A stretch of DNA of 64,000 bases from positions 62,001-126,000 of the forward strand of contig NZ_JAHCAQ010000007.1 of assembly GCF_019634845.1 (NCBI RefSeq), written 5' to 3'. This document shows, piece by piece, positions 10,972 through 63,667 of the stretch; position 1 is the stretch's first letter, and every line of letters begins with the position of its first letter. The DNA comes from Dokdonella sp. GTDB taxonomy: Bacteria > Pseudomonadota > Gammaproteobacteria > Xanthomonadales > Rhodanobacteraceae. The translations under genes were made by a program, and so were the position numbers. The notes under the pieces are model-generated. The model worked only from the letters and a program-made list of their open reading frames with translations. It did not search any database and was not told the DNA's origin.

Positions 10972-11274
<303 letters not shown>

Positions 11275-11322
11275 TCACCCGCAGCACGGCGACGGCGCTG
11301 CCGTCGCCACAGGAGCATCGCC

Positions 11323-11793: not shown

Positions 11794-11794
11794 C

Positions 11795-12328: not shown

Positions 12329-12347
12329 GGAACGTGACCGGTGATGC

Positions 12348-12400: not shown

Positions 12401-12464
12401 GACCACGGCAACAAAACTACCACCCCGCCCGCCGCAGCCGCGGCAGGCGACCGAGGAAACCGAC

Positions 12465-14012
<1,548 letters not shown>

Positions 14013-19504: not shown

Positions 19505-19578
19505 GCAGGCGGCGGTGGACGAAGGGCGCGTGATCCTAGCAGCTCGACCGGGCACGCTGCCGTGTCGGCAGCGGCAGC

Positions 19579-22841: not shown

Positions 22842-24134
<1,293 letters not shown>

Positions 24135-44287: not shown

Positions 44288-44418
44288 CGCGGGTTTCCTG
44301 AACGCGAGCCGGGCAGTGTAACGGCAGCGGCCGCGCGGCTGCGCGGCGCCAGCGCGACTGCACTACGATGGCGCGGTGCCCAGGCGCCCGTCAGCGCCAT
44401 CGACCCGGAGTCCGCCGC

Positions 44419-45931: not shown

Positions 45932-46924
45932 TCAGGACGCCCGTTGCTGCAGGCGACGCTCCCAGGCCAGCGCCGTGCGCGCAATCTCGTCGAGATCGTC
46001 GTGACGCGGCTGCCAACCCAGCAGCGTGCGGATGCGCTGCGCGTCGGCCACCAGCGCCGGAATGTCACCCGCGCGGCGCGCCTGCTCGACCACGCGCAGG
46101 CGCGCACCGCTGGCGCGCTCCACCGCAGCGATCACCTCGCGCACCGAATAGCCATGCCCGTAGCCGCAGTTGAGCGTGAGCGAGGCACCGCCGCGCCGCA
46201 GGTGCGCCAGCGCGCGCAGATGCGCCGCGGCCAGATCCTCGACGTGGATGAAATCGCGGATGCCGGTGCCATCGGGCGTCGCGTAGTCGGTGCCGAAGAT
46301 CGCCAGCGCCTCGCGCTGCCCGGTGGCGACTTCGCAGGCCACCTTGAACAGCAGCGTCGAGCCGCGCGTGGACAGGCCGATGCGCCCCTGCGGATCGCAG
46401 CCGGCGACATTGAAATAGCGCAGGATCACGTGGCGCAGGCTGGCGTTGGCGTCGAGGTCGCGCAGCATCCACTCGCTCATGAGCTTGGAGCGGCCGTAGG
46501 GACTGATCGGCTCGGTTGGCGTGTCCTCGCTGGCGCGGCCATCGGCGTTGGGCCCGTATACGGCCGCGGTCGAGGAGAACACGCAGTGCTGCACGCCATG
46601 GCGCACGCAGGCCGCGAGCAGGTTGCGCGTGGCGCAGGTGTTGTTGCCGTAGTAGCGCAGCGGATCGGCCACCGATTCGGGCACCACGGTGCGTGCGGCG
46701 AAATGCAGTACGGACTGCACTTGGTGGCGCGGCAACAGATCATCGAGCAGCGCCGCGTCACCGACGTTGCCGACCACCAGCGGCGCATCGAGCACCGCCT
46801 CGCGGAAACCCGTGCTGAGGTCGTCGAGCACCAGCACGGGCAGGCCGGCCTCGCGCAGCTGGCGCACCACATGGCTGCCGATGTAACCGGCGCCGCCGGT
46901 GACGAGGATCGTGGCTTGCGTCAT
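45932..46924 (-). CDS. galE: UDP-glucose 4-epimerase
   Basis: 330 residues from ATG 46924. ILVTGGAGYIGSHVVRQL NAD site, STAAVYGP (Ser), SPYGRSKLMSEWML (Tyr-x3-Lys), LRYFNVAGCDPQGRIG and DGTGIRDFIHVEDLA are all classic GalE. It provides UDP-galactose or UDP-GalNAc. It is the last gene of the minus-strand operon and overlaps the preceding stop (ATGA), so it is linked to the megasynthase run. Confidence 0.95.
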   Translation of the reverse strand: MTQATILVTGGAGYIGSHVVRQLREAGLPVLVLDDLSTGFREAVLDAPLVVGNVGDAALLDDLLPRHQVQSVLHFAARTVVPESVADPLRYYGNNTCATRNLLAACVRHGVQHCVFSSTAAVYGPNADGRASEDTPTEPISPYGRSKLMSEWMLRDLDANASLRHVILRYFNVAGCDPQGRIGLSTRGSTLLFKVACEVATGQREALAIFGTDYATPDGTGIRDFIHVEDLAAAHLRALAHLRRGGASLTLNCGYGHGYSVREVIAAVERASGARLRVVEQARRAGDIPALVADAQRIRTLLGWQPRHDDLDEIARTALAWERRLQQRAS

Positions 46925-48603
46925 GTGCGTTCCTCCGCGATTGCGCGCTGGCGCCAGCGCGCGACGAGGCGCTTGGCGTCGATGATCTCGACGCCGGCGG
47001 CGGCGCTGTAGGTATGGCAGCCGCGCAGGCCATGGCGCCAGTCCGGTTCGATGCGGCCGAGCGCCCGCTCCGCGTAGTGTTCGGGATCGAGCCGCGTGAC
47101 TTCGTTGAACACCACGGCGTAGCCGTACTCGACGCTGCAATCCTGCGCCGGCCGGATCAGGCGCCCTTCGTGCATGAACAACTTGCCGGCCGGTCGCGCG
47201 CGCCGCACGTCGCTCAGCAGCGGATTGGCCGGATGCGCACGCCAGGGCCCCAATGGCGTGTCGGCGACGAACAGGAACAGATCGGTCCACACGCGGCGGT
47301 CGACGTCGAGCGGACTTTCGCTGATGCAGGCGAACAGGTACCAGTGGCGACCATCGTGATGCAGCGTGCCATCGACCACGTTGCGCCCGCGCACGAGTTC
47401 GGCGACCGGCTCCCAACGCGCCGGAAAGTCGAGCGCCCGGTACAGCACGAAGTTGCGTGCCGCCGATGATTCCACGCTCAGCCACCACGCATCGTCCCAC
47501 CGGTACACGAGCGGATACGACAGATGCCAGGCCAGGTCGAGCACGACCTGCGCCTGTTGCGGACGCAGCGCGGCGTCGAGCTCGGCCACTGCGATGCGAC
47601 CGCGCCGCGTCGCATGCGGACATTCCTCGACGAACAGCCAGCGGCGCCCGTCATGCTCGACCAGGCTGGGATCGGCCCAGAAGCGCCCGGCCGGCGTCGC
47701 CAGCAACTGCCAGTCGGCGGCCTGCGGCTGCCGCGGGTCGAGCGGCGTGCCACAGCGCGCCGCCAGCAACCAGTCCTCGGCACGGCCCAGGCGCGGCAGA
47801 TGACGCCGCGCCGCCCGCCACAGCAGGCGCAGCACGAACCCACCGAGCGCGAGCGCGCCCGGCGCCGCGAAGGTTGGTGGCGGTGCGGCCGGTGGCGCGT
47901 GGCCGCGAGCGAGCTCGCGCAGCAGGCGTGCCAACGTCGCCGGCACGCGCAGCAACTGGCAGGCGCGGTTGCGTGCGAACGACAACTGCGCGGTGGCGCT
48001 GTGGTCGACGCCGAGCCAGCGCCAGTCGGCGCCATCGTGGACCACGATGCCACCGGCGCTGGTGACCTCGCCGCGCCACAGCGGCGCCAGATGGCGCAGG
48101 CCGTGCCCGTGGCCGTCGGTAGCGTCGCGTTCGAAAAACCAGCTCGCGCGCGTGGCGAGCGCAGCGAGGTCCGCCGCGGCCGGCGGCAGACCGAAGCCGA
48201 GCAGCACGTCGGCATCGAGGCCGCGCACCAGCGCGCAGCCTTGGGCGTCGAGCTCGAGCCGGCCCGCGCGCTCGACCGCCGGCACCGCATGCAGCGGCAG
48301 CGCCGGCAGGCGTGTGCGCAGATCCACGCTCGCGGTGGCGCGGCGCGCGCTGCCGGCCAATCGCGCATCGAGGCGCAGGAAGGCGGCGAGGGCACCCCGC
48401 GGCGCCGCTGCCGGCGGCAGCGGCACCTGCAGCAACGCCACCAGTTCGCAGGCCCCGGTCGTTGTCAGTGCGGCCAGGGTTTCGGCCAGCCAGGCCGGCA
48501 CCAGCAGACGATCGAGCAGTACCACCACGCGCAACCGACGGCCGTGCGCAGGCAGGTCCGCGTACAGTGCAGTGGCCTGGTCGGCGACGCCGGTGGCGGT
48601 CAT
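46921..48603 (-). CDS. Glycan-transferase-like protein with GINT/GH43-type propeller domain
   Basis: 560 residues from ATG 48603. Residues 1 to about 240 contain a formyltransferase-like or GT-like Rossmann segment (RRLRVVVLLDRLLVPAWLAETLAAL). Residues about 290-530 form a five-blade propeller of the glucosamine inositolphosphorylceramide transferase type: GRFWADPSLVEHDGRRWLFVEE, RGRIAVAEL, SYPLVYRWDDAWWLSVES, VVDGTLHHDGRHWYLFACIS and WRAHPANPLLSD. Such proteins occur in bacterial surface-glycan loci. Overlaps 4 bp with both neighbours. It could attach a sugar to the megasynthase product or act in EPS assembly; not determinable here. Confidence 0.7.
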   Translation of the reverse strand: MTATGVADQATALYADLPAHGRRLRVVVLLDRLLVPAWLAETLAALTTTGACELVALLQVPLPPAAAPRGALAAFLRLDARLAGSARRATASVDLRTRLPALPLHAVPAVERAGRLELDAQGCALVRGLDADVLLGFGLPPAAADLAALATRASWFFERDATDGHGHGLRHLAPLWRGEVTSAGGIVVHDGADWRWLGVDHSATAQLSFARNRACQLLRVPATLARLLRELARGHAPPAAPPPTFAAPGALALGGFVLRLLWRAARRHLPRLGRAEDWLLAARCGTPLDPRQPQAADWQLLATPAGRFWADPSLVEHDGRRWLFVEECPHATRRGRIAVAELDAALRPQQAQVVLDLAWHLSYPLVYRWDDAWWLSVESSAARNFVLYRALDFPARWEPVAELVRGRNVVDGTLHHDGRHWYLFACISESPLDVDRRVWTDLFLFVADTPLGPWRAHPANPLLSDVRRARPAGKLFMHEGRLIRPAQDCSVEYGYAVVFNEVTRLDPEHYAERALGRIEPDWRHGLRGCHTYSAAAGVEIIDAKRLVARWRQRAIAEERT

Positions 48604-49379
48604 GCCAACGCCCGCGCCCAGTCGATGATGGCCTGCTGCAGGCGCTGCCGATCCTCGTGGCGCATGAACATGTGGTCGCAGTCGGGCCAGTGGTGCAGGC
48701 GCACGCGGGCGCTGCGTGCGCTGGCGCCGTAGGTCGCGGCGAACTGGCGTCGATCGGTGAAATAGGCAGCGGCGCCGCCGGTGTACAGGGCCAGCAGCGC
48801 CACCCCGCGCGCAACGAGTTGCGCCGCCTGCCGGCGCGCCGCGGCCGGGTCGGGCCAGTCGCGCAGGTCGCGGTCGCCGAGTGCAGCAACATGTCTGCGG
48901 CGCAGGCGTCGCCACACGGTCCTGACCGCGCTGCCGCCGCGACCGAGCAGCAGGCGCAACTGGCCAAGGCGGAACCACGCGCCACGCGCCGCATACGGAT
49001 CGAGCAGCAGCAGCCCGCACACGCGCGCATCGGTCAGCGCCACCTTCCAGGCCTGGTCGGCCGCGCTGCACAGGCCGCCGAGCACGAAGCGGCTGGCGCC
49101 GCTGATGGCGCACAGGCGGTCCAGGCCCTGCACGAGCACGGCCACGTCGTCGCCACGCTTGGGCGGCGCATCGCCCACCCCCGGTTGGTCCACGCGCAGC
49201 ACCGCAATGCCGTCGCGCGCCAGTGCGCGGGCGAGATCGACGTGCAACCGGAACGGTCCGCTGCGCGGGATGAAACCCGCGTTGAGCAGGATCCACAGCG
49301 GGCGCGTGGTCGGCTGTGCGGGCCGCGTCAGGATGCCGGTCAGGCCGCCACCGAGGTCGAGCGGAACTTCCTCGATCAT
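48600..49379 (-). CDS. Alpha/beta hydrolase with Cys nucleophile (XrtA-hydrolase-like)
   Basis: 259 residues from ATG 49379 (overlaps the upstream stop). Oxyanion region LLNAGFIPRSGPFRLHVDLA, then LRVDQPGVGD. The nucleophile elbow is VLGGLCSAADQ with Cys104 in place of Ser, and a C-terminal WPDCDHMF supplies the His (236). Such Cys-type hydrolases are found in EPS and exosortase A clusters. As the operon lacks a thioesterase domain, this enzyme is the best candidate to release or transfer the carrier-bound product (inference). Confidence 0.8.
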   Translation of the reverse strand: MIEEVPLDLGGGLTGILTRPAQPTTRPLWILLNAGFIPRSGPFRLHVDLARALARDGIAVLRVDQPGVGDAPPKRGDDVAVLVQGLDRLCAISGASRFVLGGLCSAADQAWKVALTDARVCGLLLLDPYAARGAWFRLGQLRLLLGRGGSAVRTVWRRLRRRHVAALGDRDLRDWPDPAAARRQAAQLVARGVALLALYTGGAAAYFTDRRQFAATYGASARSARVRLHHWPDCDHMFMRHEDRQRLQQAIIDWARALA

Positions 49380-50203
49380 GCCGCCTCCGCGCCCGGCGCG
49401 AGTCGCGCCAGGGCCTCGATGCAGGCCGCCACCGGCGGCGTGATGAAGGTCGCGCGCAAATCGATGCGTTCGTGCCAGGCCGCCGCCGCGGCTGGCAACG
49501 CGTGCCACGTGGTGGCGCGCGCGAGTGGCGCGGCGCGCTCATCGTCGACCACATGCACGGGCTCGACAGCGGACTCGAGCAGCGCCTCCAGATCCTGCGC
49601 CGCGAGTTCGGCGCGCAGCGCGGGCGGGCAGTATGCGGCCAGCAGCCGCTCGGGGTCGCTCGGCCACGGCTGCGCGCCGAGGAATGGGTAACGTTGGCGC
49701 GAGGCGCGCTCGCGGCGGTCCATCGCGATCAGCTCGTCGAGCCAGACCTGGCCGCGCGGCAAGGGCTGCCACAACCACAGCGGCAGCCGATGGCAGCGCG
49801 CCAGTCGCGCCGCGATCCAGCCACCGGCGCGCGCACCGAGCACGCTGCATGGCAGCGCCGGGGCCCGGCGCGCGAGTTCGGCCAGCGCAACCTCGGCATC
49901 GGCGACCGCGCCGGCGAGCGTGAAGGCGCTTTCCTCGCCCCACGAGTCGCCACTGCCGAAGTAATCGAAACGCAAGCTGGCGATGCCGCGTTCGGCCAAT
50001 CGCGCCGCTACCAGCGACAGCAGCCGGTAGCTGAGGAAGTGCTCGTGGAAAAATGGCGGACACAGCAGCAGCGCGGCACGTGGCACCCCCTGCGCGGGGC
50101 GGAACACCGTCGACAGGCGTCGCTGCGGGGCGCCCGCGAACGCGAACTCGTGCAGAGCCTCGCCACCACGCGCGGGCGACGTCGACGCAGGCACGGCCGT
50201 CAT
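49376..50203 (-). CDS. Alpha/beta-hydrolase-fold protein with Arg at the nucleophile site
   Basis: 275 residues from ATG 50203 (ATGA overlap with the megasynthase stop). The fold is clear: AALLLCPPFFHEHFLSYRLL, IASLRFDYFGSGDSWGE (strand after the oxyanion loop) and an elbow SVLGARAGGW where the catalytic Ser position is Arg125. The C-terminal His region is also not conserved. It resembles exosortase A-associated hydrolase 2, a family I recall as having an atypical elbow. Probably not a serine hydrolase; may be a structural or acyl-binding partner of the neighbouring Cys hydrolase. Confidence 0.78.
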   Translation of the reverse strand: MTAVPASTSPARGGEALHEFAFAGAPQRRLSTVFRPAQGVPRAALLLCPPFFHEHFLSYRLLSLVAARLAERGIASLRFDYFGSGDSWGEESAFTLAGAVADAEVALAELARRAPALPCSVLGARAGGWIAARLARCHRLPLWLWQPLPRGQVWLDELIAMDRRERASRQRYPFLGAQPWPSDPERLLAAYCPPALRAELAAQDLEALLESAVEPVHVVDDERAAPLARATTWHALPAAAAAWHERIDLRATFITPPVAACIEALARLAPGAEAA

Positions 50204-53200
50204 CCGGTGCGCCTCGCGCCGATCCAGCCGCGCAGGCGCGACAGCCAGCCGCCGCGCAGCGTCGCCGACTCCTGCGGCAGCGCCGTCGCGATGCTGGCCA
50301 GCGTACCGGTGGCGATCGCCAGCACGTTGAGGCGCGTGCCGGTCTCGCGTTCCACGCGCGCGAGCATGTCGACCGCCAGCAGCGAATCGCCACCGAGGTC
50401 GAAGAAGTTGTCGTCGGCCTGCACCGCGGCGACACCGATCAGCTCGCACCACAGCGCGGCAAGATAGGTCTCGCGCGCGTCGACCACGGCAGCGGCCGGC
50501 GCGGCGGCCGGCGCGGCCTGCTCGGCTGGTGGCGGCAAGGCCTTACGGTCGATCTTGCCGTTGGGCGTCGTCGGCATCGATTCGACGACGACGATGTGAC
50601 TGGGGCGCATGTAGGCCGGCAAGGTGTCGCGCAGGCGCTCGCGCAGGCGCGTGGCGAGGTCGCCGAAGCGGTCGCGCGCGGTCACGTACAGCACGAGCCG
50701 CTGGTCGTGCGGGCCGAACTCGCGCACCGCCGCGGCGGCCTCGCGCACGAGCGGATCTTCGTGCGCGGCGGCCTCGATGTCGCCAAGCTCGACGCGAAAG
50801 CCGCGGACCTTGACCTGGTCGTCGATGCGGCCATGGAACTGCAGCACGCCGTCGCGCAGGCTGCCGGCATCCCCGGTGCGGTACATGCGGCTGCCGTCGG
50901 CCGCGAACGGGTCGGCGCGGAAACGCTCGGCCGTTAGGTCGGGGCGGTTGAGGTAACCGTCGGCGACACCGTCGCCGCCGATCCAGATCTCGCCGCGCTC
51001 GCCGGGCGCGACCGCCTGCCCCGCGGCATCGAGCACATGGATGCGGGTGTTGGCGATCGGCCGCCCCAACGGCACCGGATCCTCGTCGGCGACGACACGA
51101 TGCAGCGTCGACCAGATCGTGGTCTCGGTGGGACCGTACATGTTCCACAACTGGCGGCAATGCGGCAGCACGAGACTGGCCAGGTCACGCGGCATCGCCT
51201 CGCCGCCGACCAGCAGCCGCAGGCCGGCCACCGCCTCGCCCGCGTCACCCTCGCACAGCAGCCGCAGCAGGGTCGGCGTGGTCTGCAGCACGCTGGCGCC
51301 GCAGTCCTTGAACAGCGCTCGCGCCTGCTGCGGATCGCGCACCTGCGCCTCGCTGGCGATGTGCACGCGCGCGCCGCAGATCAGCGGCAGGTACAGCTCC
51401 AGCCCGGCGATGTCGAACGACAGCGTGGTCACCGCGCAGATCACATCGTCGGCGTCGAAGCCCGGCTGCTCGCGCATCGAGCACAGGAAATTGACGAGAT
51501 TGCGGTGCAGGATGCGCACCCCCTTGGGTTCGCCGGTCGAGCCCGACGTGAACAGCACGTAGGCGAGATCGGCGCCACTCACGGCCGGCAGCGGCGTCAC
51601 CGCCGCGGCCCGGCGCAGCTCGCCGTCGCCGAACGCGACCAGCGCGATGCCGGGTCCACTCACCGCATCCGGTACGGCTTCGCCGTCGAGCACCACCACG
51701 TGCCGCAACGCGGCACGCTCGGCCATGAGCTGCAGGCGCTTGGCGGGGAACGCCGCGTCGAGCGGCACGTAGGCTGCACCGGCGCGCAGGATCCCGAGCG
51801 CTGCCGCCAGCATCGCGCAGCGCCGCGGCATGCAGATGCCGACCAGCTCGCCGCGGCCCACGCCACTGGCGAGAAGTCGCGCCGCCACCTGCGCGCTGGC
51901 ATGCCACAACTGCGCGTAGCTGTAGCTTGCGCCCGCATCCGATACCGCAATGCGGTCGGGCGTGGCCTGCACCTGCGCCGCGATCAGATCGAGCAGCGAA
52001 CCGGTGTCCGGCCGCGGCGCCGGTGCCGCTGGCGTGGCCGTGGCGACGGCCGCTGCCGGCAGCACATGCGTTGGGGTTTGCATGGCGACCTCCTCGAGCA
52101 GGCGCTCGTACTGGGCGATCCAGCGCTGGATCGTCGCCGTTTGATACAACGCGGTCCGGTAGTGCAGATCCAGCGTGAGCTGGCGACCGTCGTCATTGAG
52201 GTTGAAGAACAGGTTCCACAACAGCGCCACGTGCGGGCAATCGCGCCAGCGCGTGACCAGCCCACTGAACTGCGGCGCGCGCACGCGCGGATTGAGATTG
52301 AAGATCACATCGGCCAGCGCGCCACGCGCGCCACGCCGGCGCAGCGCGCGCGCGCGCACGATCGTCAGCAGGCTGAGGTCCTGATGCTCGGCGGCATCGA
52401 GCAACGCGGCCTGGGCACCGGCCACGGCCGCGTCGATGCCATCGTGCGCCGCGATGCGCAGCCGCAGCGGCAGCGTGTTGACGCCATCGCCGATCAACGC
52501 GCCGCTGCCGGCCAGCGCCTGCCCCGCGAACGGCACGGCCACCGCGAAGTCGCGCTGGCCCGACAGGCGCGCGAGGAACAGGCCGAAGGCGCCCAGCAGC
52601 AGACCGTACAGGGTCACCCCGCGACGCCTGGCCTGTGCGCGCAACGCGGTGCTCAGCTCGACGCCGAACTCGTGGCGTTCGGTGGCGGCGTCGAAGTCGC
52701 TGTCGGCGCCCGCGGTCAGGGTCGGGTCGGCCGGCAGATCCAGTGGCGCCGGCAGCTCGGCGTACAGCGCATTCCACCAGGCCAACTGCGCCGCGCCATT
52801 GCCGGCGCGCCGGGCATGCTCGGCCAGCGCGTAGGCGCGCAGGCTCTGCGCGGCCGGCAGTTGCGCCGCGTGGCCGGCGTGCGCGGCGTTGTAGCCAACC
52901 TGCAGTTCCTCGCACAGCACCGCCAGCGACCAGCCATCGAGAATGAGGTGATGGCCGATCACATGCAGGGCATGGCGTTGCGCGCCCAACCGCAGCAATG
53001 CAAAACGCAGCAGCGGCGCTTGCGTGAGATCGAACGGCGTGCGCATCTCGCGCTCGCACCAGTCCGCCAGCGCGCTCTGCGCATCAGCGCCGGCGAGATC
53101 GACCTCGCGCAGCGGCAACGGCGGCAATGCCTGCAGCACCAGGCTGCGCCCGTTGGCCGAGATGGCACAGCGGAACGCCTCGTGACGCTGCCACAGGTTG

Positions 53201-56200
53201 CGCAGCGCATCCTCGAGTGCGGAACGATCGAGCGTGCCGTCGAATTCGAGCAGCACCGCTTCGTTGCAGGCCAGCGCGGCGCTCGGCCCGTACTGGCAAC
53301 CGAGCCATTTCTCGAGCTGGCCGTCGGTCAGCGCCACCGTCTCGGGCAGCGTGGTTGCTGCCGCTGCAGGCGCGCTGGCCGCTGCCGGCAACGCCGGCGG
53401 CGCCGCACGTGGCCGCAGCAGCCCGGCCGCGAGCAACTCGTCGAGTGCGGCGCGCACCGCCTCGTGGATGCGCTCGACCTCGACCGCGCCGTGGGCCTCG
53501 GTGAGGAAGCAATTGAACTGTTCGTACAGGTGCAGGCCGTGCCCACGCAGCGCATACCAGAACAGGCTCGCGCACGGTTGGTCCTCGTCGGCGACGATGC
53601 GCCACAACGAACTGCAGCCCACCGCCGTGAGTGGCGCTGCGCGTTGCTCGAACAATGCGTTGAGACGCGCCACGAGTTCGCCGCTGCGCGCGTTGAGCGT
53701 TTCCTGCAGTGCCGGCCCGCTGCGCTTGAGGTGCAGCAGCGCGGCGCGCGCCGCCGCCAGCGCCAACGGATGCCGCACGAAGGTGCCGGCGAAATAGGTG
53801 ACACCGGCTTCGGGCACCGAGTCGTCGCCAAAGTGCCAGTCGCCGCCGTCGAGCGCATCGAGCCAGTGCGCGCTGCCGGCGATCGCCGCCAGCGGCAGAC
53901 CGCCGCCGATGATCTTGCCGTAGGTGGCGATGTCGGCCCGCACGCCATAGAACGCCTGCGCGCCGCCCTGGGCCAAGCGGAATCCGGTGATGACCTCGTC
54001 GAAGATCAGCGCACAGCCGGCCTCGTCGCAGATCGCGCGCAAGGCCTGCACGAAGGCGCGTGGCTGCAGCGTCGGGTTCCTGCCCTGCACCGGCTCGATC
54101 ATGATCGCGGCCAGCTCGTGGCCGCGCTCGCGCAGCACCTGGAGCGCGGCATCGCTGCCATAGTCGAGCACGAGCACGTTCTCGACCGCGCTGGCAAGGA
54201 TGCCCGGCGCCGCCGCGATCGAACGCAGGCTGCGCGTGCCGCGCACGATCACCTCGTCGAAGATGCCGTGGTAGGAATTGGTGAAGATCGCGATCGTGCG
54301 GCGCCCGGTCACGGTGCGCGCAATGCGCATCGCGCCCATCACCGCTTCGGATCCGGTATTGCAGAACGCCACGCGCGCCATGCCGGTCATCTCGGCGATG
54401 AGCGCCGCCACTTCGGCGGTGAGTGGATGCTGCGGCCCGATCTCGTAGCCGGCGTCGATCTGCTGATGCAGCGCGGCCGCCACGGCGCTGGGCTGGTAGC
54501 CGAGGAAATTGGCCCCGAACGCATTGAGGCAGTCGACGTACTGATTGCCGTCGAGGTCGTACAGGTACGCGCCTTGCGAGCGCTCGACGACGATCGGATA
54601 GACGAGCTCCTTCCACAGCGGGTTGAAGCCGGTCACCACGCGCGGATCGGCCATGCACGCGCGGTTGTGCTCGGCGAACGCCTTCGAACGCGCCGTGCGC
54701 GCGTTGTAGCGCTGCGTGAAGTCGTCGATCCAGGCGTGCTGCGCCGGCGTCAGGGCCAGCTCGCGCTGGCGCGTGATGCGCGCACTGGCGCCGAACGGGC
54801 GCGCACCAAGATCGGCCGGCAGCGCGTCGGCGCCGGCTGCCGGGGGCGGCGCGGTGGCGACCGCGGGCGTGGCCACGCTCGGCGACGGTGCTGCCACGGC
54901 GGGCGCGGCAGCGCCGGCCAGCCGTGCCAGCAACTGCATCTGCTGCTGCATGAGCGCCTGCTGGCTGCGCAGCAGATCGAGCAGGTCGGCGGGCGCGGTG
55001 GCGGTGGCGGTGGTCGCAGACGGCGCCGCAATGGGTGTCGGAGTTGGCGTCGGCATTGCTGCCGGCGCCAGCGCGGCCACGACCGGCTGTGGCCGCGTCG
55101 AGGCAATGAAGCCAGCGAGACTGGCAATGCTGTCGAGGTCCTCCAGCAGGCGCCGGAATTTGAGCTTGACGCCATGCTGGCGCTCGAGTTCGAGCGCGGC
55201 CTGGGTCAGCGACAGCGAATCGAGCCCGAGCTCGAGGAAACTGTTGGTGTCATGGCTGGCGTCGATGCGCTCGCCCGTCAGCGACTCGACCAGCGCACGC
55301 AGTTGCACGCGCAGCGCGGCATCGGCGGCCGCCGGCGCGACCGTGTCGGCGGTCGTGTCGGCGGTCGCGGTCGTGGTCACGGGAGCTGCGGGTGTGGGCT
55401 GGACTTCGTTCATGCTGACTTCCTCTGTCGCACCGCGCACGGGCAACGGTGGGTCGATCCAATGGCGCTGGCCGCCGAACGGATAGGTTGGCAAACCGAT
55501 GCGGCGACGGCCCTGGCCGGCGTAGCGCAGGCTCCAGTCGGGCGTGGCACCGGCCACCCAGCAGGCACCCAGCGCGGCGGCAAAATGTTCGGCGTCGCTG
55601 CCGGGTTTGGCGGCCGGGCCGAGTGTGGCCACGGCCTGCGCGTCGCCGCCGAGCTGGCTGCGCACGAAGCTGGTCAATGCGTGCGAGGGCCCGGCCTCGA
55701 TGAACAGGCTGACACCGTCGGCCGTCGCCGCGGCGATGGCGCTGGCAAACTGCACCGGCTGACGCAGCTGGCGGCACCAGTAGGCGACGCTGGTCGCCTC
55801 CTGCGCGGTGATCGGCGCGCCGCTGACGCAGGAATGGAACGGCCGCGTCGGCGCCGCCAGCGACAGGCCGGCGAACGCACGCTCGAACGGCTCCAGCGCG
55901 CCTGCCATCAGCGCGCTGTGGAAGGCATGGCTGACCTTGAGCCGCGTGCTGGCGACATGCTGCGCGGTGAGCCGCTGCGCGAGGTCGTCGATGGCGGCGC
56001 CAGTGCCCGCCACCACGCACAGTTCGGGCGCATTGTGCGCGGCAAGGTCGAGTCCGGCGCCGAGCTGCGCGGCGATCGCGGCCGGCGCCGCGCGCACCGC
56101 CAGCATCGCACCGGTCGGCTGCGCCTGCATCGCGGCGCCGCGCGCACACACGAGCATCACGGCCTGTTCGAGCGTGAACACGCCGGCCAGCGTGGCCGCG

Positions 56201-58068
56201 ACGTACTCGCCACTGCTGTGACCGATGAGGACATCGGCGACGATGCCGCAGCTTTCCCACAGCCGCGCCAATGCGTATTCGACTGCAAACAACGCCGGCT
56301 GGGTGTAGCGCGTCTGTGCCAGGCGCTCGGCGGCAGCGGTCGCCTGCGCAGGCGGCGGCAGGATCAGGGCGCGCAGGTCGCAGCCCAGGTGCGGACCGGC
56401 CAGCGCACAGCAGCGCTCGAACTCGGCCGCGAACACCGGTTCGGTCGCCACCAGTTCGCGTGCCATGTCGACATGCTGCGAGCCCTGACCCGGGAACAGC
56501 AGCGCGATCTTGCGGTGACGCGCGGTCTGCGGCGCGAGCTGCGCCAGCGCGCTGGCCGCCTGCGCGGCATCACGCGCGACTACGGCGCCGCGCACCGCCA
56601 GCTCGCGGCGGCCGAGTGCAAGCGTGGCGGCGATGTCGGGCAGCTGCGCCTCGCTGGCGTGTTCCAGATGCTGCGCGAGTTGCTGCGCCCGGCGTTGCAG
56701 GGCGGCTTCATCGTGCGCCGACAGCAGCAGCAGCTCGACGCCGCGCCCCGCCGCCGCGGGCGGCGCCGGTGGTGCTTCCTCGAGCACGACGTGCGCATTG
56801 GTGCCGCCGATGCCGAACGAACTCACGCCGGCGCGGCGCGGCGTGGCGCCGCGCGGCCAGGCCACCGCCTCGCGCGCAAGCCGGAACGGTGAATGGGCAA
56901 AGTCGATCTGCGGATTGGGTTGCTCGAGGTTGATCGATGGCGGGATGCGCTCGTGATACAGGGCCAGCGTCGCCTTGATGAGGCCGGCCACACCCGACGC
57001 CGCGACGAGATGACCCAGGTTGCCCTTGAGCGAACCGAGCCAGCAGGTCGCCGCTGCTGCGCCGTCGCCGCGGAAGGCACGCGTCAACGCCTCCACTTCG
57101 ATCGGATCGCCCAGCAGGGTGCCGGTGCCATGCGCCTCGACGTAGCCGATCGCGCCGGCATCGAGACCGGCGCAGTCGAGCGCGAGCCGGATGGCAGCGC
57201 TTTGCCCGCGCACGCTCGGCGCGCTGAAACTGGCCTTGTCCGCGCCATCGTTGTTGACGCCCACGCCGCGGATCACCGCGTAGATCGTGTCGCCTTGCGC
57301 CAGCGCATCGGCCAGGCGCTTGAGCACGACCACGCCTGCCCCCGAGGAGAACACGGTGCCGCTGGCGTCGGCGGCGAATGGTCGGCAATGGCCGTCAGCC
57401 GACTCGATCGCGCCTTCGGCCGGCAGATAGCCCGACTCCTGCGGCACCACGAGGTTGACGCCGCCGGCCAGCGCCACGTCGCACTGCCAGCTCATGAGTC
57501 CGTACCAGGCCTGCGCCACCGCCACCAGCGAGGTCGAACAGGCCGTGTACAGGCTGATCGCCGGCCCGGTGAGGCCGAGCCGGTGCGCGACGCGAGTGGC
57601 GACGTAGTCCTTCTCGTTGGCGAGCATCGCGGCGAATTCGCCGCTGGCGGCGATGACTTCGGGATGCTCGTCGATGAGCTTGCGATAACCGTTGTTGGAC
57701 GTACCGGCCCAGACGCCGATGCTGCCCTCGCTGCGCGCCGGGTCGATGCCGGCGTGTTCGAGCGCGCTCCAGCACAGCTCGAGGAAGATGCGTTGCTGTG
57801 GGTCGATCAGTTGCGCCTCGCGCGCGGGGATCCCGAACAGCGCGGCGTCGAAACGCGCGGCATCGGCGATGATGCCGCGGGCGGCCACGTAGCGCGGGTG
57901 CTCGCGCAGCTCGCGCGGCACGCGCGGCGACAGCTCGTCCGCTGCGAACCGCGTGATCGCTTCGCGACCCGCGAGCAGGTTCGCCCACAGCTCGTCGACG
58001 CTGGCCGCGCCGGGAAAGCGGCCGGCCATGCCGACGATCGCAATGCCATCCTGCGCGGGCTCGTTCAT
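50200..58068 (-). CDS. Hybrid PKS-NRPS megasynthase: KS-AT-ACP-AMT-C-A-T
   Basis: 2622 residues from ATG 58068 (GGAGG 6 bp upstream). KS about 5-430: Cys177 (TACSTS), His313 (EAHGTGT), His353 (KGNLGH). AT about 520-815: GHSSG Ser618, HAFH (714-717), malonyl-type. ACP Ser951 (LGLDS). Ala/Pro/Thr linker about 990-1095. PLP aminotransferase about 1108-1550: Lys1385 (YGKIIGGGLP), IFDEVITGF. C about 1575-2000: HHLILDG (1706-1712). A about 2025-2515: LFTSGSTGEPKG, YGPTETTIW, Lys2505; pocket read by eye DILQLGMIWK, the glycine type. T Ser2562 (LGGDS). No KR, DH, methyltransferase or TE. The order is that of McyE/NdaF without methyltransferase, and MycA-like. It should extend a carrier-bound acyl group by malonate, transaminate the beta-keto group and condense with glycine. 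Confidence 0.95.
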   Translation of the reverse strand: MNEPAQDGIAIVGMAGRFPGAASVDELWANLLAGREAITRFAADELSPRVPRELREHPRYVAARGIIADAARFDAALFGIPAREAQLIDPQQRIFLELCWSALEHAGIDPARSEGSIGVWAGTSNNGYRKLIDEHPEVIAASGEFAAMLANEKDYVATRVAHRLGLTGPAISLYTACSTSLVAVAQAWYGLMSWQCDVALAGGVNLVVPQESGYLPAEGAIESADGHCRPFAADASGTVFSSGAGVVVLKRLADALAQGDTIYAVIRGVGVNNDGADKASFSAPSVRGQSAAIRLALDCAGLDAGAIGYVEAHGTGTLLGDPIEVEALTRAFRGDGAAAATCWLGSLKGNLGHLVAASGVAGLIKATLALYHERIPPSINLEQPNPQIDFAHSPFRLAREAVAWPRGATPRRAGVSSFGIGGTNAHVVLEEAPPAPPAAAGRGVELLLLSAHDEAALQRRAQQLAQHLEHASEAQLPDIAATLALGRRELAVRGAVVARDAAQAASALAQLAPQTARHRKIALLFPGQGSQHVDMARELVATEPVFAAEFERCCALAGPHLGCDLRALILPPPAQATAAAERLAQTRYTQPALFAVEYALARLWESCGIVADVLIGHSSGEYVAATLAGVFTLEQAVMLVCARGAAMQAQPTGAMLAVRAAPAAIAAQLGAGLDLAAHNAPELCVVAGTGAAIDDLAQRLTAQHVASTRLKVSHAFHSALMAGALEPFERAFAGLSLAAPTRPFHSCVSGAPITAQEATSVAYWCRQLRQPVQFASAIAAATADGVSLFIEAGPSHALTSFVRSQLGGDAQAVATLGPAAKPGSDAEHFAAALGACWVAGATPDWSLRYAGQGRRRIGLPTYPFGGQRHWIDPPLPVRGATEEVSMNEVQPTPAAPVTTTATADTTADTVAPAAADAALRVQLRALVESLTGERIDASHDTNSFLELGLDSLSLTQAALELERQHGVKLKFRRLLEDLDSIASLAGFIASTRPQPVVAALAPAAMPTPTPTPIAAPSATTATATAPADLLDLLRSQQALMQQQMQLLARLAGAAAPAVAAPSPSVATPAVATAPPPAAGADALPADLGARPFGASARITRQRELALTPAQHAWIDDFTQRYNARTARSKAFAEHNRACMADPRVVTGFNPLWKELVYPIVVERSQGAYLYDLDGNQYVDCLNAFGANFLGYQPSAVAAALHQQIDAGYEIGPQHPLTAEVAALIAEMTGMARVAFCNTGSEAVMGAMRIARTVTGRRTIAIFTNSYHGIFDEVIVRGTRSLRSIAAAPGILASAVENVLVLDYGSDAALQVLRERGHELAAIMIEPVQGRNPTLQPRAFVQALRAICDEAGCALIFDEVITGFRLAQGGAQAFYGVRADIATYGKIIGGGLPLAAIAGSAHWLDALDGGDWHFGDDSVPEAGVTYFAGTFVRHPLALAAARAALLHLKRSGPALQETLNARSGELVARLNALFEQRAAPLTAVGCSSLWRIVADEDQPCASLFWYALRGHGLHLYEQFNCFLTEAHGAVEVERIHEAVRAALDELLAAGLLRPRAAPPALPAAASAPAAAATTLPETVALTDGQLEKWLGCQYGPSAALACNEAVLLEFDGTLDRSALEDALRNLWQRHEAFRCAISANGRSLVLQALPPLPLREVDLAGADAQSALADWCEREMRTPFDLTQAPLLRFALLRLGAQRHALHVIGHHLILDGWSLAVLCEELQVGYNAAHAGHAAQLPAAQSLRAYALAEHARRAGNGAAQLAWWNALYAELPAPLDLPADPTLTAGADSDFDAATERHEFGVELSTALRAQARRRGVTLYGLLLGAFGLFLARLSGQRDFAVAVPFAGQALAGSGALIGDGVNTLPLRLRIAAHDGIDAAVAGAQAALLDAAEHQDLSLLTIVRARALRRRGARGALADVIFNLNPRVRAPQFSGLVTRWRDCPHVALLWNLFFNLNDDGRQLTLDLHYRTALYQTATIQRWIAQYERLLEEVAMQTPTHVLPAAAVATATPAAPAPRPDTGSLLDLIAAQVQATPDRIAVSDAGASYSYAQLWHASAQVAARLLASGVGRGELVGICMPRRCAMLAAALGILRAGAAYVPLDAAFPAKRLQLMAERAALRHVVVLDGEAVPDAVSGPGIALVAFGDGELRRAAAVTPLPAVSGADLAYVLFTSGSTGEPKGVRILHRNLVNFLCSMREQPGFDADDVICAVTTLSFDIAGLELYLPLICGARVHIASEAQVRDPQQARALFKDCGASVLQTTPTLLRLLCEGDAGEAVAGLRLLVGGEAMPRDLASLVLPHCRQLWNMYGPTETTIWSTLHRVVADEDPVPLGRPIANTRIHVLDAAGQAVAPGERGEIWIGGDGVADGYLNRPDLTAERFRADPFAADGSRMYRTGDAGSLRDGVLQFHGRIDDQVKVRGFRVELGDIEAAAHEDPLVREAAAAVREFGPHDQRLVLYVTARDRFGDLATRLRERLRDTLPAYMRPSHIVVVESMPTTPNGKIDRKALPPPAEQAAPAAAPAAAVVDARETYLAALWCELIGVAAVQADDNFFDLGGDSLLAVDMLARVERETGTRLNVLAIATGTLASIATALPQESATLRGGWLSRLRGWIGARRTG

Positions 58069-59939
58069 CGTCCACCTCCGCTGCGGGCGCCGAAACGGGT
58101 GAACGCGGCGCGCCGCGCGGCCGCACGGGCCGGGTCGGCCTCGCTGCCGCCCGCGGCCGCTGCCGGCGCCGCCAGCACGGCCGCCTGCGCCGCGATCGTC
58201 GGATGTTCGTAGATCTGTGCCGCGCCAAGTACGTGACCGTGCCGGCGCAGTTCGGTCAGCGCGGCGACCACGAGCAGCGAACGCGCACCGTGGTCGAACA
58301 GGTTGGCGTGCACGTCGAGCCGCGCCACCCCGAGCAGGTGTTGCCACAGTTCGCGCAACTGCTCCACCAGCGGCGCGTCCTCGCGCCATTGCAGCGGCTC
58401 GGTCGCGCTTGTCGCGGCGAGTGCGCGGCGATCGACCTTGCCGCTGGCCGTGAGCGGCAGCGCGGCGTGCATGAGTACCGCCTGCGGCACGAGGTAGGCG
58501 GCCAGGCTGGCGGCACAGTGTGCCTGCAGCGCGAGAGCGAGCGCGTGCGGATCGGCGTGGGCATCGCGCGCCACCACGTGCGCGACGAGGCGCCGCCCGG
58601 CCGGTGCGTCGCAGGCCACCACCACGGCGGCGGCCACCGCATCGTGGTCGGCCAGCACGGCCTCGACCTCGGCCGGCTCGATGCGGAAGCCGTCGATCTT
58701 GATCTGGTCGTCGAGCCGTCCCAGGCAATCGAGCACGCCGCCGCCGACATCGCGCACGCGATCGCCGCTGCGATACCAGCGCGTGCCATCGAGCAGGATG
58801 AAGCGCTCGGCGGTGAGCTCGGGGCGGTGGATGTAACCGGCGGCCAGACAGGCGCCGCCAAGCAGCAGCTCGCCTTCCGCGCCGGCAGCCACCTCGACCA
58901 GCGCGGCATCGACGATGCGCGTGCGCACGTGCGGCAGCGCGCGGCCGATCGGCGGCGCCGCCGGCCACTGCGCGGGATCGCCGTCGAGCTCGTGGGCGGT
59001 CACGACATGGGTTTCGGTCGGACCATAATGGTTGTGCAGCACGGCGCCCGGCAATGCCACGAACAGCGCGCGGATCGCCGGCGTGACGTGCAAGGGTTCA
59101 CCGGCGGTGATGATGTCGCGCAGCGCGGCCGGCAGCACGCCGCCAGCGGCTACGGCCTCGGCCAGCGCCTGCAGCGCGACATGCGGCACGAACAGGCGTT
59201 CGATGCGCTCGCGCGCCAGCAGCGCCAGCAGCGCGTAGGGATCGCGCCGCTCGGCGTCGCTCGGCAACACGAGGCAGCCGCCTGCGGCAAGCGTGGTGAA
59301 AATTTCCTGGAACGAGACGTCGAAACCGAGCGGCGCGAACTGCAGCGTGCGGGCGCCGTGGCCCAGACGCGGATGCTGCAGGTGCCAGGCCAACAGCCCG
59401 GCCAGCGCGGCGCTGCGCATGGCCACGCCCTTGGGCCGGCCGGTCGAACCCGAGGTGAACAGCACATAGGCCAGTTCGCCCGCCGTCAGCTCCGGCACGA
59501 CCGCGACCGTGATGGCCGCGGCCGGCTCGATGCGTGCGATGCCGGTCGGCGCCTGCGCGGTGGCGCTGGCGTAAAAGCAGCGCGGCGCCGCATCGTCGAG
59601 CATCGCGGCGAGCCGCGCCGGGGGAAAGTCCAGATCGAGCGGCAGATAGGCCGCGCCGCAGGCGATGCAGGCGAGCATGGCAGCGATGGTTTCGATCGCG
59701 CGCTCGGCCGGCAGCGCCACCACGTCACCACACTGCACTCCGGCGGCGCGCAGCGCAGCCGTATGCGCCGCGACGCGCGCGAGCAGTTGCGCGTGACTGA
59801 GCTGCAACTCGCCCGCACGCAGCGCCGGCGCGCTCGAACCGGCCTGCGCCAACCACGGCGCAAGCAGGCTGTCGGCGCCGCCCGGGCGTGGCGGCAAGAC
59901 GCTGGCAACGCCCATCACACGCTCCATCGCAACGGACAT
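58065..59939 (-). CDS. NRPS loading protein: adenylation domain plus carrier, predicted proline
   Basis: 624 residues from ATG 59939; ATG 59915 with GGAG 6 bp upstream may be the real start (616 residues). A domain: LFTSGSTGRPKG (160-171), the phrase GFDVSFQEIF (205-214), NHYGPTET, GRLDDQIKIDGFRIE, Lys501. The pocket residues read by eye (207, 208, 211, 249, 277, 279, 304, 312, 313, 501) give DVQLIAHVVK, the classical proline code. T domain about 520-590 with Ser554 (DHGARSLL, a slightly altered LGGxS). It overlaps the megasynthase start by 4 bp, so it should load the starter (prolyl) unit for the KS. Confidence 0.93.
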   Translation of the reverse strand: MSVAMERVMGVASVLPPRPGGADSLLAPWLAQAGSSAPALRAGELQLSHAQLLARVAAHTAALRAAGVQCGDVVALPAERAIETIAAMLACIACGAAYLPLDLDFPPARLAAMLDDAAPRCFYASATAQAPTGIARIEPAAAITVAVVPELTAGELAYVLFTSGSTGRPKGVAMRSAALAGLLAWHLQHPRLGHGARTLQFAPLGFDVSFQEIFTTLAAGGCLVLPSDAERRDPYALLALLARERIERLFVPHVALQALAEAVAAGGVLPAALRDIITAGEPLHVTPAIRALFVALPGAVLHNHYGPTETHVVTAHELDGDPAQWPAAPPIGRALPHVRTRIVDAALVEVAAGAEGELLLGGACLAAGYIHRPELTAERFILLDGTRWYRSGDRVRDVGGGVLDCLGRLDDQIKIDGFRIEPAEVEAVLADHDAVAAAVVVACDAPAGRRLVAHVVARDAHADPHALALALQAHCAASLAAYLVPQAVLMHAALPLTASGKVDRRALAATSATEPLQWREDAPLVEQLRELWQHLLGVARLDVHANLFDHGARSLLVVAALTELRRHGHVLGAAQIYEHPTIAAQAAVLAAPAAAAGGSEADPARAAARRAAFTRFGARSGGGR

Positions 59940-60101
59940 GCAGTGCGTCGCGGCAACCGCATGGCAGCGCAGCCGATCACTGCGCAGCGACCAATCGCCT
60001 GCGCGGCCACCACGCGGCCGTGCCGCGCGCGCGCAGCCCGATCGTTGCTCATGGCCATGGTCATCGTCGCTGGCTGCATCGCGATTGATCCGGTATTTGC
60101 C

Positions 60102-61028
60102 TCAATGCACACGCGGCACGCCCCAATCGGCGCCGCGGTTGGCGCCGAAGCGTTCGGTCACGCCGAACAGCGGACCGAGCGCCGCGAGGTAGGCGCCAAG
60201 CCAGCCTGCACGGGCCCGGTGCCCCTTGCGGCGCTCCTCGGCGACCACGTCGCGGGTGAACTCGCGCCAGTTGCTCGCTTCGAGCTGGTCGAAGGCGACC
60301 GTGATATTCATGTTGATGCAACGCGTGATGTGCCATACGCCACACGGCACGAAGGCGGCGTCGCCGGCCTCGAGCACGACGCTGTGACGGCGCGCCTGCT
60401 GCAGCGACGGCCAGCGCTCGCGGTCATTGACGTCGTCCATGCGCGACATCCATGGCATCTGCGGATGCACGTAGAGCAGGTCTTCCTGACCGGGTTCGTA
60501 GAACGTGAACTCCTTGGCGCCGTACACCTGCGCGATCCAGGTGTGCATGTGGAGCATGTCGTAGTGCAGGTACGGAAAGCCGCTGCCGGGGCCGCCAAAG
60601 AAGATCTCGAGGTGGTTGACGAGATCGAACACGCCCTTTGGCATCAACGGACTGGTGTGGCGATTGGGCTGGCCGCAGGCCAGCCGCGGGCCGAGGTCGG
60701 GGAGCAGATCGCTGCAATCGGCCAGCGTGCAGGGGTATGGCGCCGGATGCTCGGCGTCGGAACGCAGTTGCTGGCCGACGATGTCGCCCAGCCGGTACGG
60801 GCGGCCGCGCACGCGCACGGTTCGGTCGGCGTGGTGCTCGAGGAAGAATTCCGGCGTGAAGCGATGACGCGCCGGCCAGGCTGCGAGTGCGCCGCGCACC
60901 ACCACCGGCCGTCGCGGCAGCAGGTAGCGGGCGCGAAACCGCGCCGGTTCCACCTGTTCGACCTCGTCGACCCAGCCATCGCGATCGGTCGCAATCTCGT
61001 CGTTGGCCATTGCTGCCGCGATCCTCAT
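60102..61028 (-). CDS. Cupin-8/JmjC-type Fe(II)/2-oxoglutarate oxygenase
   Basis: 308 residues from ATG 61028 (GAGG 7 bp upstream). The metal triad reads HYD (His155, Asp157) and distal His233 (VWHIT), and Lys172 (YGAKEFTFY) fits the 2-oxoglutarate anchor of FIH-like hydroxylases. The N-terminus PVVVRGALAAWPA is typical of the family. It is the first gene of the minus-strand run, separated from the loading protein by 162 bp with no obvious promoter. A tailoring hydroxylase acting on a carrier-bound amino acid (for example proline) or a protein side chain is inferred. Confidence 0.85.
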   Translation of the reverse strand: MRIAAAMANDEIATDRDGWVDEVEQVEPARFRARYLLPRRPVVVRGALAAWPARHRFTPEFFLEHHADRTVRVRGRPYRLGDIVGQQLRSDAEHPAPYPCTLADCSDLLPDLGPRLACGQPNRHTSPLMPKGVFDLVNHLEIFFGGPGSGFPYLHYDMLHMHTWIAQVYGAKEFTFYEPGQEDLLYVHPQMPWMSRMDDVNDRERWPSLQQARRHSVVLEAGDAAFVPCGVWHITRCINMNITVAFDQLEASNWREFTRDVVAEERRKGHRARAGWLGAYLAALGPLFGVTERFGANRGADWGVPRVH

Positions 61029-61978: not shown

Positions 61979-63397
61979 TCAGCGCGCACCGCGCCCGAAC
62001 AGCACCACCTCGACCGTCTGCACGAGGATGATGATGTCGAGCAGCAGGTTGTGGTTCTTGACGTAGAACAGGTCGTACTTGAGTTTCTGCTCGGCATCCT
62101 CGACCGAGGCACCGTACGGGTAGCGCAGCTGCGCCCAGCCGGCCAATCCCGGCTTCACGGCGTGACGCAGGTTGTAATAGCGGATCTGGCGGGCGAGATC
62201 GGCCACGAACTCGGGCCGCTCGGGGCGTGGTCCGATGATGCTCATGTCGCCGCGCAGCACGTTCCACAGCTGCGGCAGCTCGTCGAGCCGCGTGCGTCGG
62301 ATCAGGCGCCCCACGCGCGTGATGCGGGTGTCGCCGCGCGTGGCCCAGCGCGCCACACCGTCACGTTCGGCATCGGTGCGCATGCTGCGGAACTTGATCA
62401 CATCGAACACGGCGCCGTGTTCACCCACGCGCGGCTGGCGGTACAGGATCGGCGCCCGCAGGCCCGATTCGAGCACGATGGCCAGCGCCACCAGCAGCAT
62501 GAACGGCCAGGTCAGCGCGAACACCAGCAGCGCGACCGTGATGTCGAACACGCGCTTGACCGCATGACGCAGCGGTGAGGTGTCAAAGCCCTCGGAAAAG
62601 ACCAGCCACGACGGCTCGACCAGCGCAAGGTTGACCAGACCCCGTTCGCGCTCGAAGAACGAAGCCAGCGTGCTGACCGCGATGCCGGCCTGTTTGCAGT
62701 CGAGCAGTTCGCGCATCGGCAGGCCGCAGCGCCGATCGTCCGGGCCCACCACGATCTCGTTGACCTGCAGCGACTCGGCATAGCCGCGCAGGCTGCCCTC
62801 GACCTCGAGCACGTCCTCGGCTGCCACGCGCACGGCTTCCTCACCCATGCGCACGTAGCCGAGCACGAGGAATCCGCGGCGATCGCTGCGCCGGCGCATG
62901 CGCTGCGGAATCGCGGCGGCCTGTTCGCCGGCGCCGAGCACGAGGACGCGACGCTTGAGCAGGTCGATATCGATCAGCCGCGCGAACAGCAAGCGCCAGC
63001 CCTGCACCAGCAGGAAACCGAGCAGCAGCGCGATGGCGAGCACACCGCGGCCGATGGCGGCATCGGGCAGCAGGTAGTAGACGACCAGCAGGCCTGCCAG
63101 ACCAATCGCGAAGCCGACCAGTTGGCGCGCGGCAAGGCCGAACCAGCTCTCGCGCAGATGCTGCTGATACAGGCCCAACGCCGCCATGCCGATCATCAGC
63201 GCCAGCGCGAACAGCGCCGCCCGCGGCCACAGCCATGGCATGAAGTCCGCCAACCCACCCGCGTTGCCGAGGTAGCGCAGGTGCGCGGCCAAGGCCACCG
63301 CGCAGCTCAGCAAGGCGAACTCGACCAGCGCCAGCAGGGCCAGCCAGCGAATCGACTGCCGGCGCAGCAATTGCCACATTCCGGTGTTTCGCTCCAT
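61979..63397 (-). CDS. Undecaprenyl-phosphate sugar-phosphotransferase, XrtA-associated (EpsB/WcaJ type)
   Basis: 472 residues from ATG 63397 (GGAGG 8 bp upstream; ATG 63442 is also possible). Four N-terminal helices, a CoA-binding-like domain (RRVLVLGAGEQAAAI), a fifth helix near residue 290, then the bacterial sugar transferase core: VFDVIKFRSMRTDAE, RITRVGRLIRRTRLDELPQL, NVLRGDMSIIGPRPERPEF and PGLAGWAQLRYPYG. It matches the TIGR03013 type found in exosortase A EPS loci and starts EPS repeat-unit synthesis on the lipid carrier. Although transcribed alone on the minus strand, it completes the EPS pathway. Confidence 0.93.
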   Translation of the reverse strand: MERNTGMWQLLRRQSIRWLALLALVEFALLSCAVALAAHLRYLGNAGGLADFMPWLWPRAALFALALMIGMAALGLYQQHLRESWFGLAARQLVGFAIGLAGLLVVYYLLPDAAIGRGVLAIALLLGFLLVQGWRLLFARLIDIDLLKRRVLVLGAGEQAAAIPQRMRRRSDRRGFLVLGYVRMGEEAVRVAAEDVLEVEGSLRGYAESLQVNEIVVGPDDRRCGLPMRELLDCKQAGIAVSTLASFFERERGLVNLALVEPSWLVFSEGFDTSPLRHAVKRVFDITVALLVFALTWPFMLLVALAIVLESGLRAPILYRQPRVGEHGAVFDVIKFRSMRTDAERDGVARWATRGDTRITRVGRLIRRTRLDELPQLWNVLRGDMSIIGPRPERPEFVADLARQIRYYNLRHAVKPGLAGWAQLRYPYGASVEDAEQKLKYDLFYVKNHNLLLDIIILVQTVEVVLFGRGAR

Positions 63398-63667
63398 CGT
63401 GTTGGCCTCCGTGAACACCGGGCCTCGGTAACGCGCGTCCATCAACTTGATTCCTTCAGTCGAATCCGCCTCGTGACCGGGCCGGTGGCGACGACGGCGT
63501 GCCGGCGGCTCTTCGCTGGCGCATTGCGCCACGTGCGCGCACTGGGGCCGGCGTGATCGGTTGTCTTCACCCGTCACTCAGCCGCCGTGGGTTTATCATC
63601 TTGGCAGTGCCCGGCCGTGTCGGCAAGGACGCAGCCGCCCCACCCGCTCCCCTGCAAGGATCACCCC

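Follow-up and report, generated by a model that had tools for sequence, protein, structure and literature searches.

Modular polyketide synthase-nonribosomal peptide synthetase (PKS-NRPS) assembly lines are normally taken to be makers of free natural products. What, then, is such a line doing among the exopolysaccharide (EPS) genes of a soil and water bacterium? The question is raised by a 64,000-nt stretch of a Dokdonella sp. genome (positions 62001-126000 of contig NZ_JAHCAQ010000007.1, from a 3.26-Mb draft that is 90% complete), which we refer to as the window, and in which an earlier interpretation of the letters alone (the sequence-only reading) had described a hybrid PKS-NRPS operon embedded in an EPS locus. 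Our analysis gives a probability of roughly 0.55 that the line is a built-in part of an XrtA-type exopolysaccharide pathway and that its product decorates the EPS. The operon occupies a minus-strand run from 61028 to 45932 and consists, in gene order, of the following.

60102..61028, minus strand: Cupin_8 Fe(II)/2-oxoglutarate-type oxygenase, a predicted tailoring hydroxylase (PF13621, 75.4 bits)
58065..59939, minus strand: adenylation-thiolation (A-T) loading protein with a Pro-type pocket (AMP-binding and PP-binding domains; pocket alignment)
50200..58068, minus strand: hybrid PKS-NRPS with ketosynthase (KS), malonyl-type acyltransferase (AT), acyl carrier protein (ACP), class III aminotransferase (AMT), condensation (C), Gly-type A and T domains, ordered KS-AT-ACP-AMT-C-A-T (Pfam, motifs)
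49376..50203, minus strand: hydrolase-2-like alpha/beta-hydrolase with Arg at the nucleophile position (TIGR03101, 54.2 bits)
48600..49379, minus strand: hydrolase-1-like alpha/beta-hydrolase with a Cys nucleophile (TIGR03100, 65.7 bits)
46921..48603, minus strand: GINT1_N protein with a C-terminal GH130/GH43-type propeller (Pfam name; fold search for the C-terminal half)
45932..46924, minus strand: GalE-type UDP-sugar 4-epimerase (TIGR01179, 425 bits, cut-off 262.3)

From the A-T gene through the GalE gene, 5/5 junctions are 4-bp ATGA overlaps, and the Cupin_8 oxygenase gene is separated from the A-T gene by 162 bp. On re-reading of the open reading frames, the coordinates, the gene order, the oxygenase in front and the joining of the genes by 4-bp overlaps were all found to have been described correctly by the sequence-only reading. 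The PKS-NRPS carries its seven domains in a single open frame of 2622 aa and has counterparts of 67-75% identity in three other Dokdonella genomes, hence a chance arrangement is excluded. All of the catalytic motifs sought were found intact, namely the Cys, His and Lys-His of the KS, the Ser and HAFH of the AT, the carrier Ser, the AMT Lys and HHxxxDG; the meanings given to these motifs are those that we assume, HAFH being taken to mark a malonyl-type AT. The pyridoxal phosphate lysine of the AMT lies in TYGKIIGGG, at residue 1382, and the closest solved structure to this domain is MycA (6kfm, E 1.1e-110, query residues 2-432). By Pfam, the KS-AT-ACP followed by an in-line class III aminotransferase and an NRPS module reproduces the domain order of the McyE/MycA kind, with no ketoreductase between the AT and the AMT, no reductive domain elsewhere in the PKS-NRPS, and neither a thioesterase nor a reductase after the last T domain. 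In the Cupin_8 oxygenase, the HxD and distal His of the metal triad are kept in 28/28 aligned rows.

The likely product follows from the adenylation pockets. For the second A domain the alignment-derived pocket is DILQLGMIW, a Gly code. For the loading A domain the alignment gave DVQFIAHV-, in which position 278 and the final position are displaced by one residue, and the pocket was taken from the translation by eye, in what we assume to be PheA numbering, as DVQLIAHVV plus K. In PMC12283262, DILQLGMIWK is printed as the Gly code of four Gly domains, and Val236 with Gln239 marks 59/71 Pro domains; the exact string DVQLIAHVVK was in no paper of the open-access literature searched for pocket codes. 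Both DVQLIAHVVK and DILQLGMIWK, as given by the sequence-only reading, were re-derived, and the mismatch to Pro and Gly that it had named as grounds for its own rejection did not appear. Its prediction of a Pro-malonate(beta-amino)-Gly product is backed by the domains, the MycA-like AMT, the pockets and the motifs, and the chain expected from the sequence on the last T domain is 3-amino-3-(pyrrolidin-2-yl)propanoyl-glycyl. Among the 81 fetched loci whose loading pocket could be read, 55 have a Pro-type, 16 a Val-type and 10 some other pocket; the pocket after the AMT starts with DILQ or DIMQ in 69/87 (Pro-type 4, Val-type 3, other 11). Beyond the published codes mentioned above, the names of these types are ones that we presume.

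Is the proximity to EPS genes a property of this line or of this one genome? We surveyed 61 genomes, comprising the window's own and 60 relatives. A close AMT (E 1.2e-119 or better) is present in 18/61, own included, and the other matches, at 1.1e-56 or weaker, are presumably HemL-type. Restriction to one genome is ruled out by the relatives that carry AMT lines. Of the AMT PKSs, 13/18 (own included) have a PF02397 sugar transferase on the same contig at a distance of at most 15 kb, whereas the controls, 42 PF00668 condensation-domain clusters among the matches listed, some of them on possibly short contigs, have one in 0/42 cases within 15 or 30 kb and in 1/42 within 60 kb. Chance adjacency is ruled out by this difference in proximity (13/18 versus 0/42), for which the Fisher value against the 20 control clusters from PF02397-bearing genomes is 1.6e-6. 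Furthermore, 18/18 PKS genomes fall among the 33 with PF02397 and 0 among the 28 without (p 1.3e-6), and among the 16 Dokdonella genomes 7/9 with an EPS chain-length gene carry the PKS, as do 0/7 without that gene (p 0.003), although all of these p-values are only a guide because the sampled genomes are kin. As for the misses, export, chain-length and glycosyltransferase genes adjoin the PKS in G009 and G014, G016 offers a 7-kb contig, PF02397 lies at 55 kb in G051, and in G029, which belongs to another genus, the AMT line stands at a contig end with no EPS gene in 26.6 kb.

The sequence-only reading had staked its tie to exopolysaccharide on EPS genes standing beside the homologues, and they do; the tie is strongly supported by the linkage, the co-occurrence and the orthologous loci. 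These lines are a conserved EPS-linked class of PKS-NRPS, on firmer ground than that reading could have known. Given that the PKS/EPS pairing recurs in many related bacteria, the product is probably a decoration of the coat rather than a free drug-like molecule.

In the window, EPS genes stand on both sides of the operon and are of the XrtA/PEP-CTERM kind.

61979..63577, minus strand: EpsB_2 polyprenyl-phosphate sugar transferase, predicted EPS start (TIGR03013, 557 bits, cut-off 393.35; PF02397)
22842..24134, plus strand: TviB-type UDP-HexNAc 6-dehydrogenase (NF011729, 601.7 bits, cut-off 592)
25493..26116, plus strand: XrtA-type polysaccharide export protein (TIGR03027, 195.5 bits, cut-off 180)
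26132..27685, plus strand: XrtA-type polysaccharide chain-length protein (TIGR03007, 364.6 bits, cut-off 278.85)
29865..30668, plus strand: polysaccharide deacetylase (PF01522, 89.9 bits)
30665..31807, plus strand: GT2 glycosyltransferase (Pfam)
33985-35985: second AsnB-like TIGR03108-type amidotransferase, below the TIGR03108 cut-off
37169..39037, plus strand: AsnB-like XrtA-type amidotransferase (TIGR03108, 605 bits, cut-off 816.9; TIGR01536 above cut-off)
39041..40354, plus strand: Wzy_C/O-antigen ligase-like protein (PF04932, 63.9 bits)

The EpsB_2, export and chain-length proteins all score above the curated cut-offs of their families, as expected of an XrtA/PEP-CTERM locus. The exosortase that would also be expected gave no PF09721 match in the window's genome (90% complete) and went undetected in 15/18 PKS-bearing genomes, own included. 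The EPS locus of the sequence-only reading is therefore confirmed and can be placed in the XrtA/PEP-CTERM kind, yet in a genome where no exosortase was found. Homologues of the GT2 glycosyltransferase (E up to 1e-40) occur in 17/18 PKS genomes and in 3/43 others. Two further proteins of the window, at 42109-43497 and 44368-45891, have no Pfam or NCBIfam match. Both are conserved neighbours of the line in other Dokdonella genomes and in G029, the first of them having three consecutive matches in the latter.

Does the locus always hold the same line? In an AMT tree made by a quick method with SH-aLRT support only, the window's clade (clade I; 28 rows from Rhodanobacteraceae, Lysobacteraceae, Burkholderiales and others) is separate from clade II (20 rows, mostly Lysobacterales) and from 38 Bacteroidota rows. 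Of the loading pockets that could be read, 21/22 in the window's clade are Pro-type, and the 17 in clade II comprise 12 of Val type and 5 of Pro type. Within Dokdonella, the same EPS locus holds a Val-type line of clade II in G014 and G009, placed between TviB and the export gene; in G012 a clade II line adjoins DnaJ and EpsB_2, which is the site of the clade I line in the window, and in the stretches fetched from G007 the EPS locus is present with no such line. Because two PKS clades occupy one EPS locus within Dokdonella, different lines have reached the same locus. A second locus of G029 (L149, G029:C12 822-8921, plus strand) encodes an orthologous A-T protein and then a KS-AT-ACP-C-A-T protein in which the AMT domain is absent, the KS-AT-ACP (62% identical to that of the window) being joined directly to C-A-T. 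Homologues of hydrolase 2, hydrolase 1, the GINT1_N protein and GalE then follow, and EPS genes are also there. Given that this orthologous locus without the AMT keeps the other genes, the aminotransferase is an optional part. The number of oxygenases also varies, with one Cupin_8 gene in the window, two in D. fugitiva and two ahead of the clade II line in L037 of G036 (11117-13212, plus strand).

How the chain might leave the line is suggested by the hydrolases. The sequence-only reading had counted two, and this stands; the nearest families are exosortase-A hydrolase 1 and hydrolase 2, with both proteins scoring below the cut-offs (65.7 against 168.45 for TIGR03100 and 54.2 against 202.75 for TIGR03101), so that neither is assigned to its family. 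In hydrolase 1 the nucleophile is Cys in 33/33 rows with no Ser in the elbow, unlike serine alpha/beta-hydrolases, and C104 and H236 are invariant in the alignment. Fold matches to its predicted structure (pLDDT 88) include DcsB and GrgF, which we take to be Cys enzymes; a likeness to polyhydroxyalkanoate synthase was sought, and PhaC was not among the best 50 rows of each fold list. In hydrolase 2 the nucleophile position is Arg in 28 and Gly in 3 rows, the nucleophile being absent in 31/31. Judging from these residues, hydrolase 2 is probably an inactive partner of hydrolase 1, and the pair resembles a heterodimer of one active and one inactive subunit. The Hydrogenophaga locus L064 has a further hydrolase 1/2 pair (19205-21174, minus strand) that faces the first.

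With our own profile, applied to the first 44 candidates per genome, hydrolase 1 is found in 18/18 genomes with the PKS and in 1/43 without; the TIGR03100 cut-off is reached by 0/61 genomes. The sole hydrolase-1 genome without a detected AMT-PKS, G003, is counted as an exception, and it may be a missed positive since its contig C434 carries a C-A fragment and the draft is only 77% complete.

The next gene had been read as encoding a GINT-like protein, which holds with the correction that its C-terminal half is a GH130/GH43-type propeller, according to a fold search covering that half. A formyltransferase was expected in the N-terminal half, where four such stretches gave no Pfam match. GINT1_N homologous frames number 11 among all fetched loci, plus those of G016 and G029.

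Outside the family, the scan of named genomes covered the best 80 of 557 AMT relatives. In Caldimonas, Rhodocyclaceae, Aquabacterium and Hydrogenophaga, the flanking genes of the line include TviB/TviC-type ones or those of hydrolase 1/2. In Mucilaginibacter L083, the one Bacteroidota relative scanned for locus content, the second protein is C-A-T-thioesterase, followed by a phosphopantetheinyl transferase, a PF02397 sugar transferase and an AAA protein with a below-cut-off Wzz match; polysaccharide genes adjoin the line here too, which in this case carries its own release domain. A plasmid search returned 49 records, all below 60% identity (47.6-58.8% among the 15 matches listed). A proximity count of 31/50 within 30 kb, for 50 of the 80 named loci, was not used, as contig names were unmatched and at least one entry, L066 (457 bp), is impossible.

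The domains and their order, the unbroken motifs, the gene overlaps typical of an operon, the linkage kept across genomes and the co-occurrence are what the sequences show; from these we infer the chemistry and the conjugation to EPS as follows. The A-T protein would load proline, the KS-AT-ACP would add one malonate and the in-line aminotransferase would convert the beta-ketone to an amine, giving a vicinal diamine, 3-amino-3-(pyrrolidin-2-yl)propanoyl, to which the C-A-T would add glycine; the Cupin_8 oxygenase may hydroxylate the unit. With no terminal thioesterase, the chain would stay bound to the last T domain. Hydrolase 1, with hydrolase 2 as its putative inactive partner, would take it onto its own cysteine and hand the acyl group to one of the sugars in the EPS repeat unit, either at a hydroxyl or at an amino group that the deacetylase has exposed. 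EpsB_2, the glycosyltransferases and the export genes would then build and export the decorated chain. More broadly, we tentatively suggest that modular PKS-NRPS lines decorate a widespread, so far undescribed, class of surface polysaccharides in bacteria. In this view the transferred unit, a vicinal diamino acid derived from Pro or Val and linked to Gly, would pass from the last carrier domain to a sugar through the Cys-nucleophile hydrolase 1, paired with an inactive hydrolase 2, and swaps of whole lines or the presence or absence of the AMT would diversify the coat much as glycosyltransferase swaps do serotypes.

Could the line instead make a free secreted small molecule? Such a product, a Pro-diamino-Gly compound that is possibly hydroxylated or cyclised, would require hydrolase 1 to act as a trans-acting thioesterase and the locus to be shared through biofilm life, which we regard as unlikely. 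Several observations nevertheless pull away from EPS decoration and towards this view. The Mucilaginibacter L083 line ends in a thioesterase with a phosphopantetheinyl transferase adjacent, which makes a free product possible in that case; the hydrolase 1 model folds like esterases; the same AMT chemistry serves the free products microcystin and mycosubtilin, and the AMT matches MycA; and the AMT line of G029 lies away from EPS genes. The public TIGR03100 model also separates PKS-bearing from PKS-free genomes less sharply than our own profile does. A free molecule is, however, difficult to square with the PF02397 linkage in 13/18, with the absence of the PKS from all 28 relatives without PF02397, and with the two clades that sit in the same EPS locus; in addition, general family scans turned up no small-molecule transporter among the operon proteins. 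A free-metabolite cluster captured at a hot spot fits badly with the co-occurrence of hydrolase 1.

The unit may also reach the coat by another route. Amino acids amide-linked to uronic acids occur in O-antigens, and a nitrogen of the diamine could be amide-linked to the carboxylate of a uronic acid (the TviB-type product) by an AsnB-like or other ligase, with hydrolase 1 only freeing the chain. TviB-type genes and AsnB-like amidotransferases in the window, and TviB-type genes beside many homologues, are consistent with this scheme, although the name of the AsnB-like family refers to XrtA loci in general, so that it need not serve the PKS; we hold it to be less likely still. That the GINT1_N protein attaches the unit to a lipid carrier, or uses it to cap or anchor the chain instead of decorating each repeat unit, seems improbable. 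The gene overlaps its neighbours by ATGA and the plant namesake, to go by the Pfam name, acts on glycosylinositol lipids, but the propeller of the C-terminal half and the small set of homologous frames (11, plus G016 and G029) argue otherwise.

No description of the EPS-linked PKS-NRPS combination, including a free-product version, was found among the papers listed in searches of one open-access collection, most subscription journals being outside the scope. PMC1569441, on the PEP-CTERM/EpsH system, contains none of the terms sought for this combination, and PMC11340318 describes a Sphingomonas polysaccharide cluster that includes an amidotransferase associated with exosortase; the rows listed contain no PKS. 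If the line does decorate EPS, many clusters regarded as 'orphan' in Lysobacterales and Burkholderiales, and perhaps in Bacteroidota, would belong to the surface coat, and a search for free compounds in them may be fruitless. Exosortase-A hydrolases 1 and 2, whose models name only 'hydrolase', would gain a first testable role, and a cationic diamino decoration could alter binding of the coat to surfaces, metals and phages.

McyE, NdaF and MycA (mycosubtilin) use an in-line aminotransferase to turn a beta-keto into a beta-amino group, and the window's line resembles them in its KS-AT-ACP-AMT order and in an AMT that aligns to MycA (E 1.1e-110). It differs in beginning with a loaded amino acid, where the known lines begin with a fatty or aryl acid, in stopping after one Gly without a thioesterase, and in sitting in an EPS locus. 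N-acyl amino acid synthases with long-chain products were reportedly linked to PEP-CTERM/exosortase loci by Craig and colleagues in 2011; they are alike in being amino-acid/acyl enzymes beside XrtA-type genes, whereas the enzyme of the window is a modular PKS-NRPS. XrtA/PEP-CTERM EPS loci, which carry exosortase-A-associated hydrolases 1 and 2, an acyl-CoA ligase and an amidotransferase, share with the window the EpsB_2, export and chain-length families above cut-offs and relatives of hydrolases 1 and 2, the amidotransferase and the O-ligase. In contrast to them, no exosortase was found in the window's genome, its hydrolases, amidotransferases and O-ligase score below cut-offs, and a whole PKS-NRPS occupies the place expected for single ligase or carrier genes. 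The off-loading enzymes SulM, ObiF, DcsB and GrgF resemble hydrolase 1 in their alpha/beta-hydrolase fold, and the Cys nucleophile is shared with the SulM and ObiF thioesterases, as stated in PMC11298585. Unlike all four, hydrolase 1 is a separate protein beside a nucleophile-less partner, and it travels with EPS genes.

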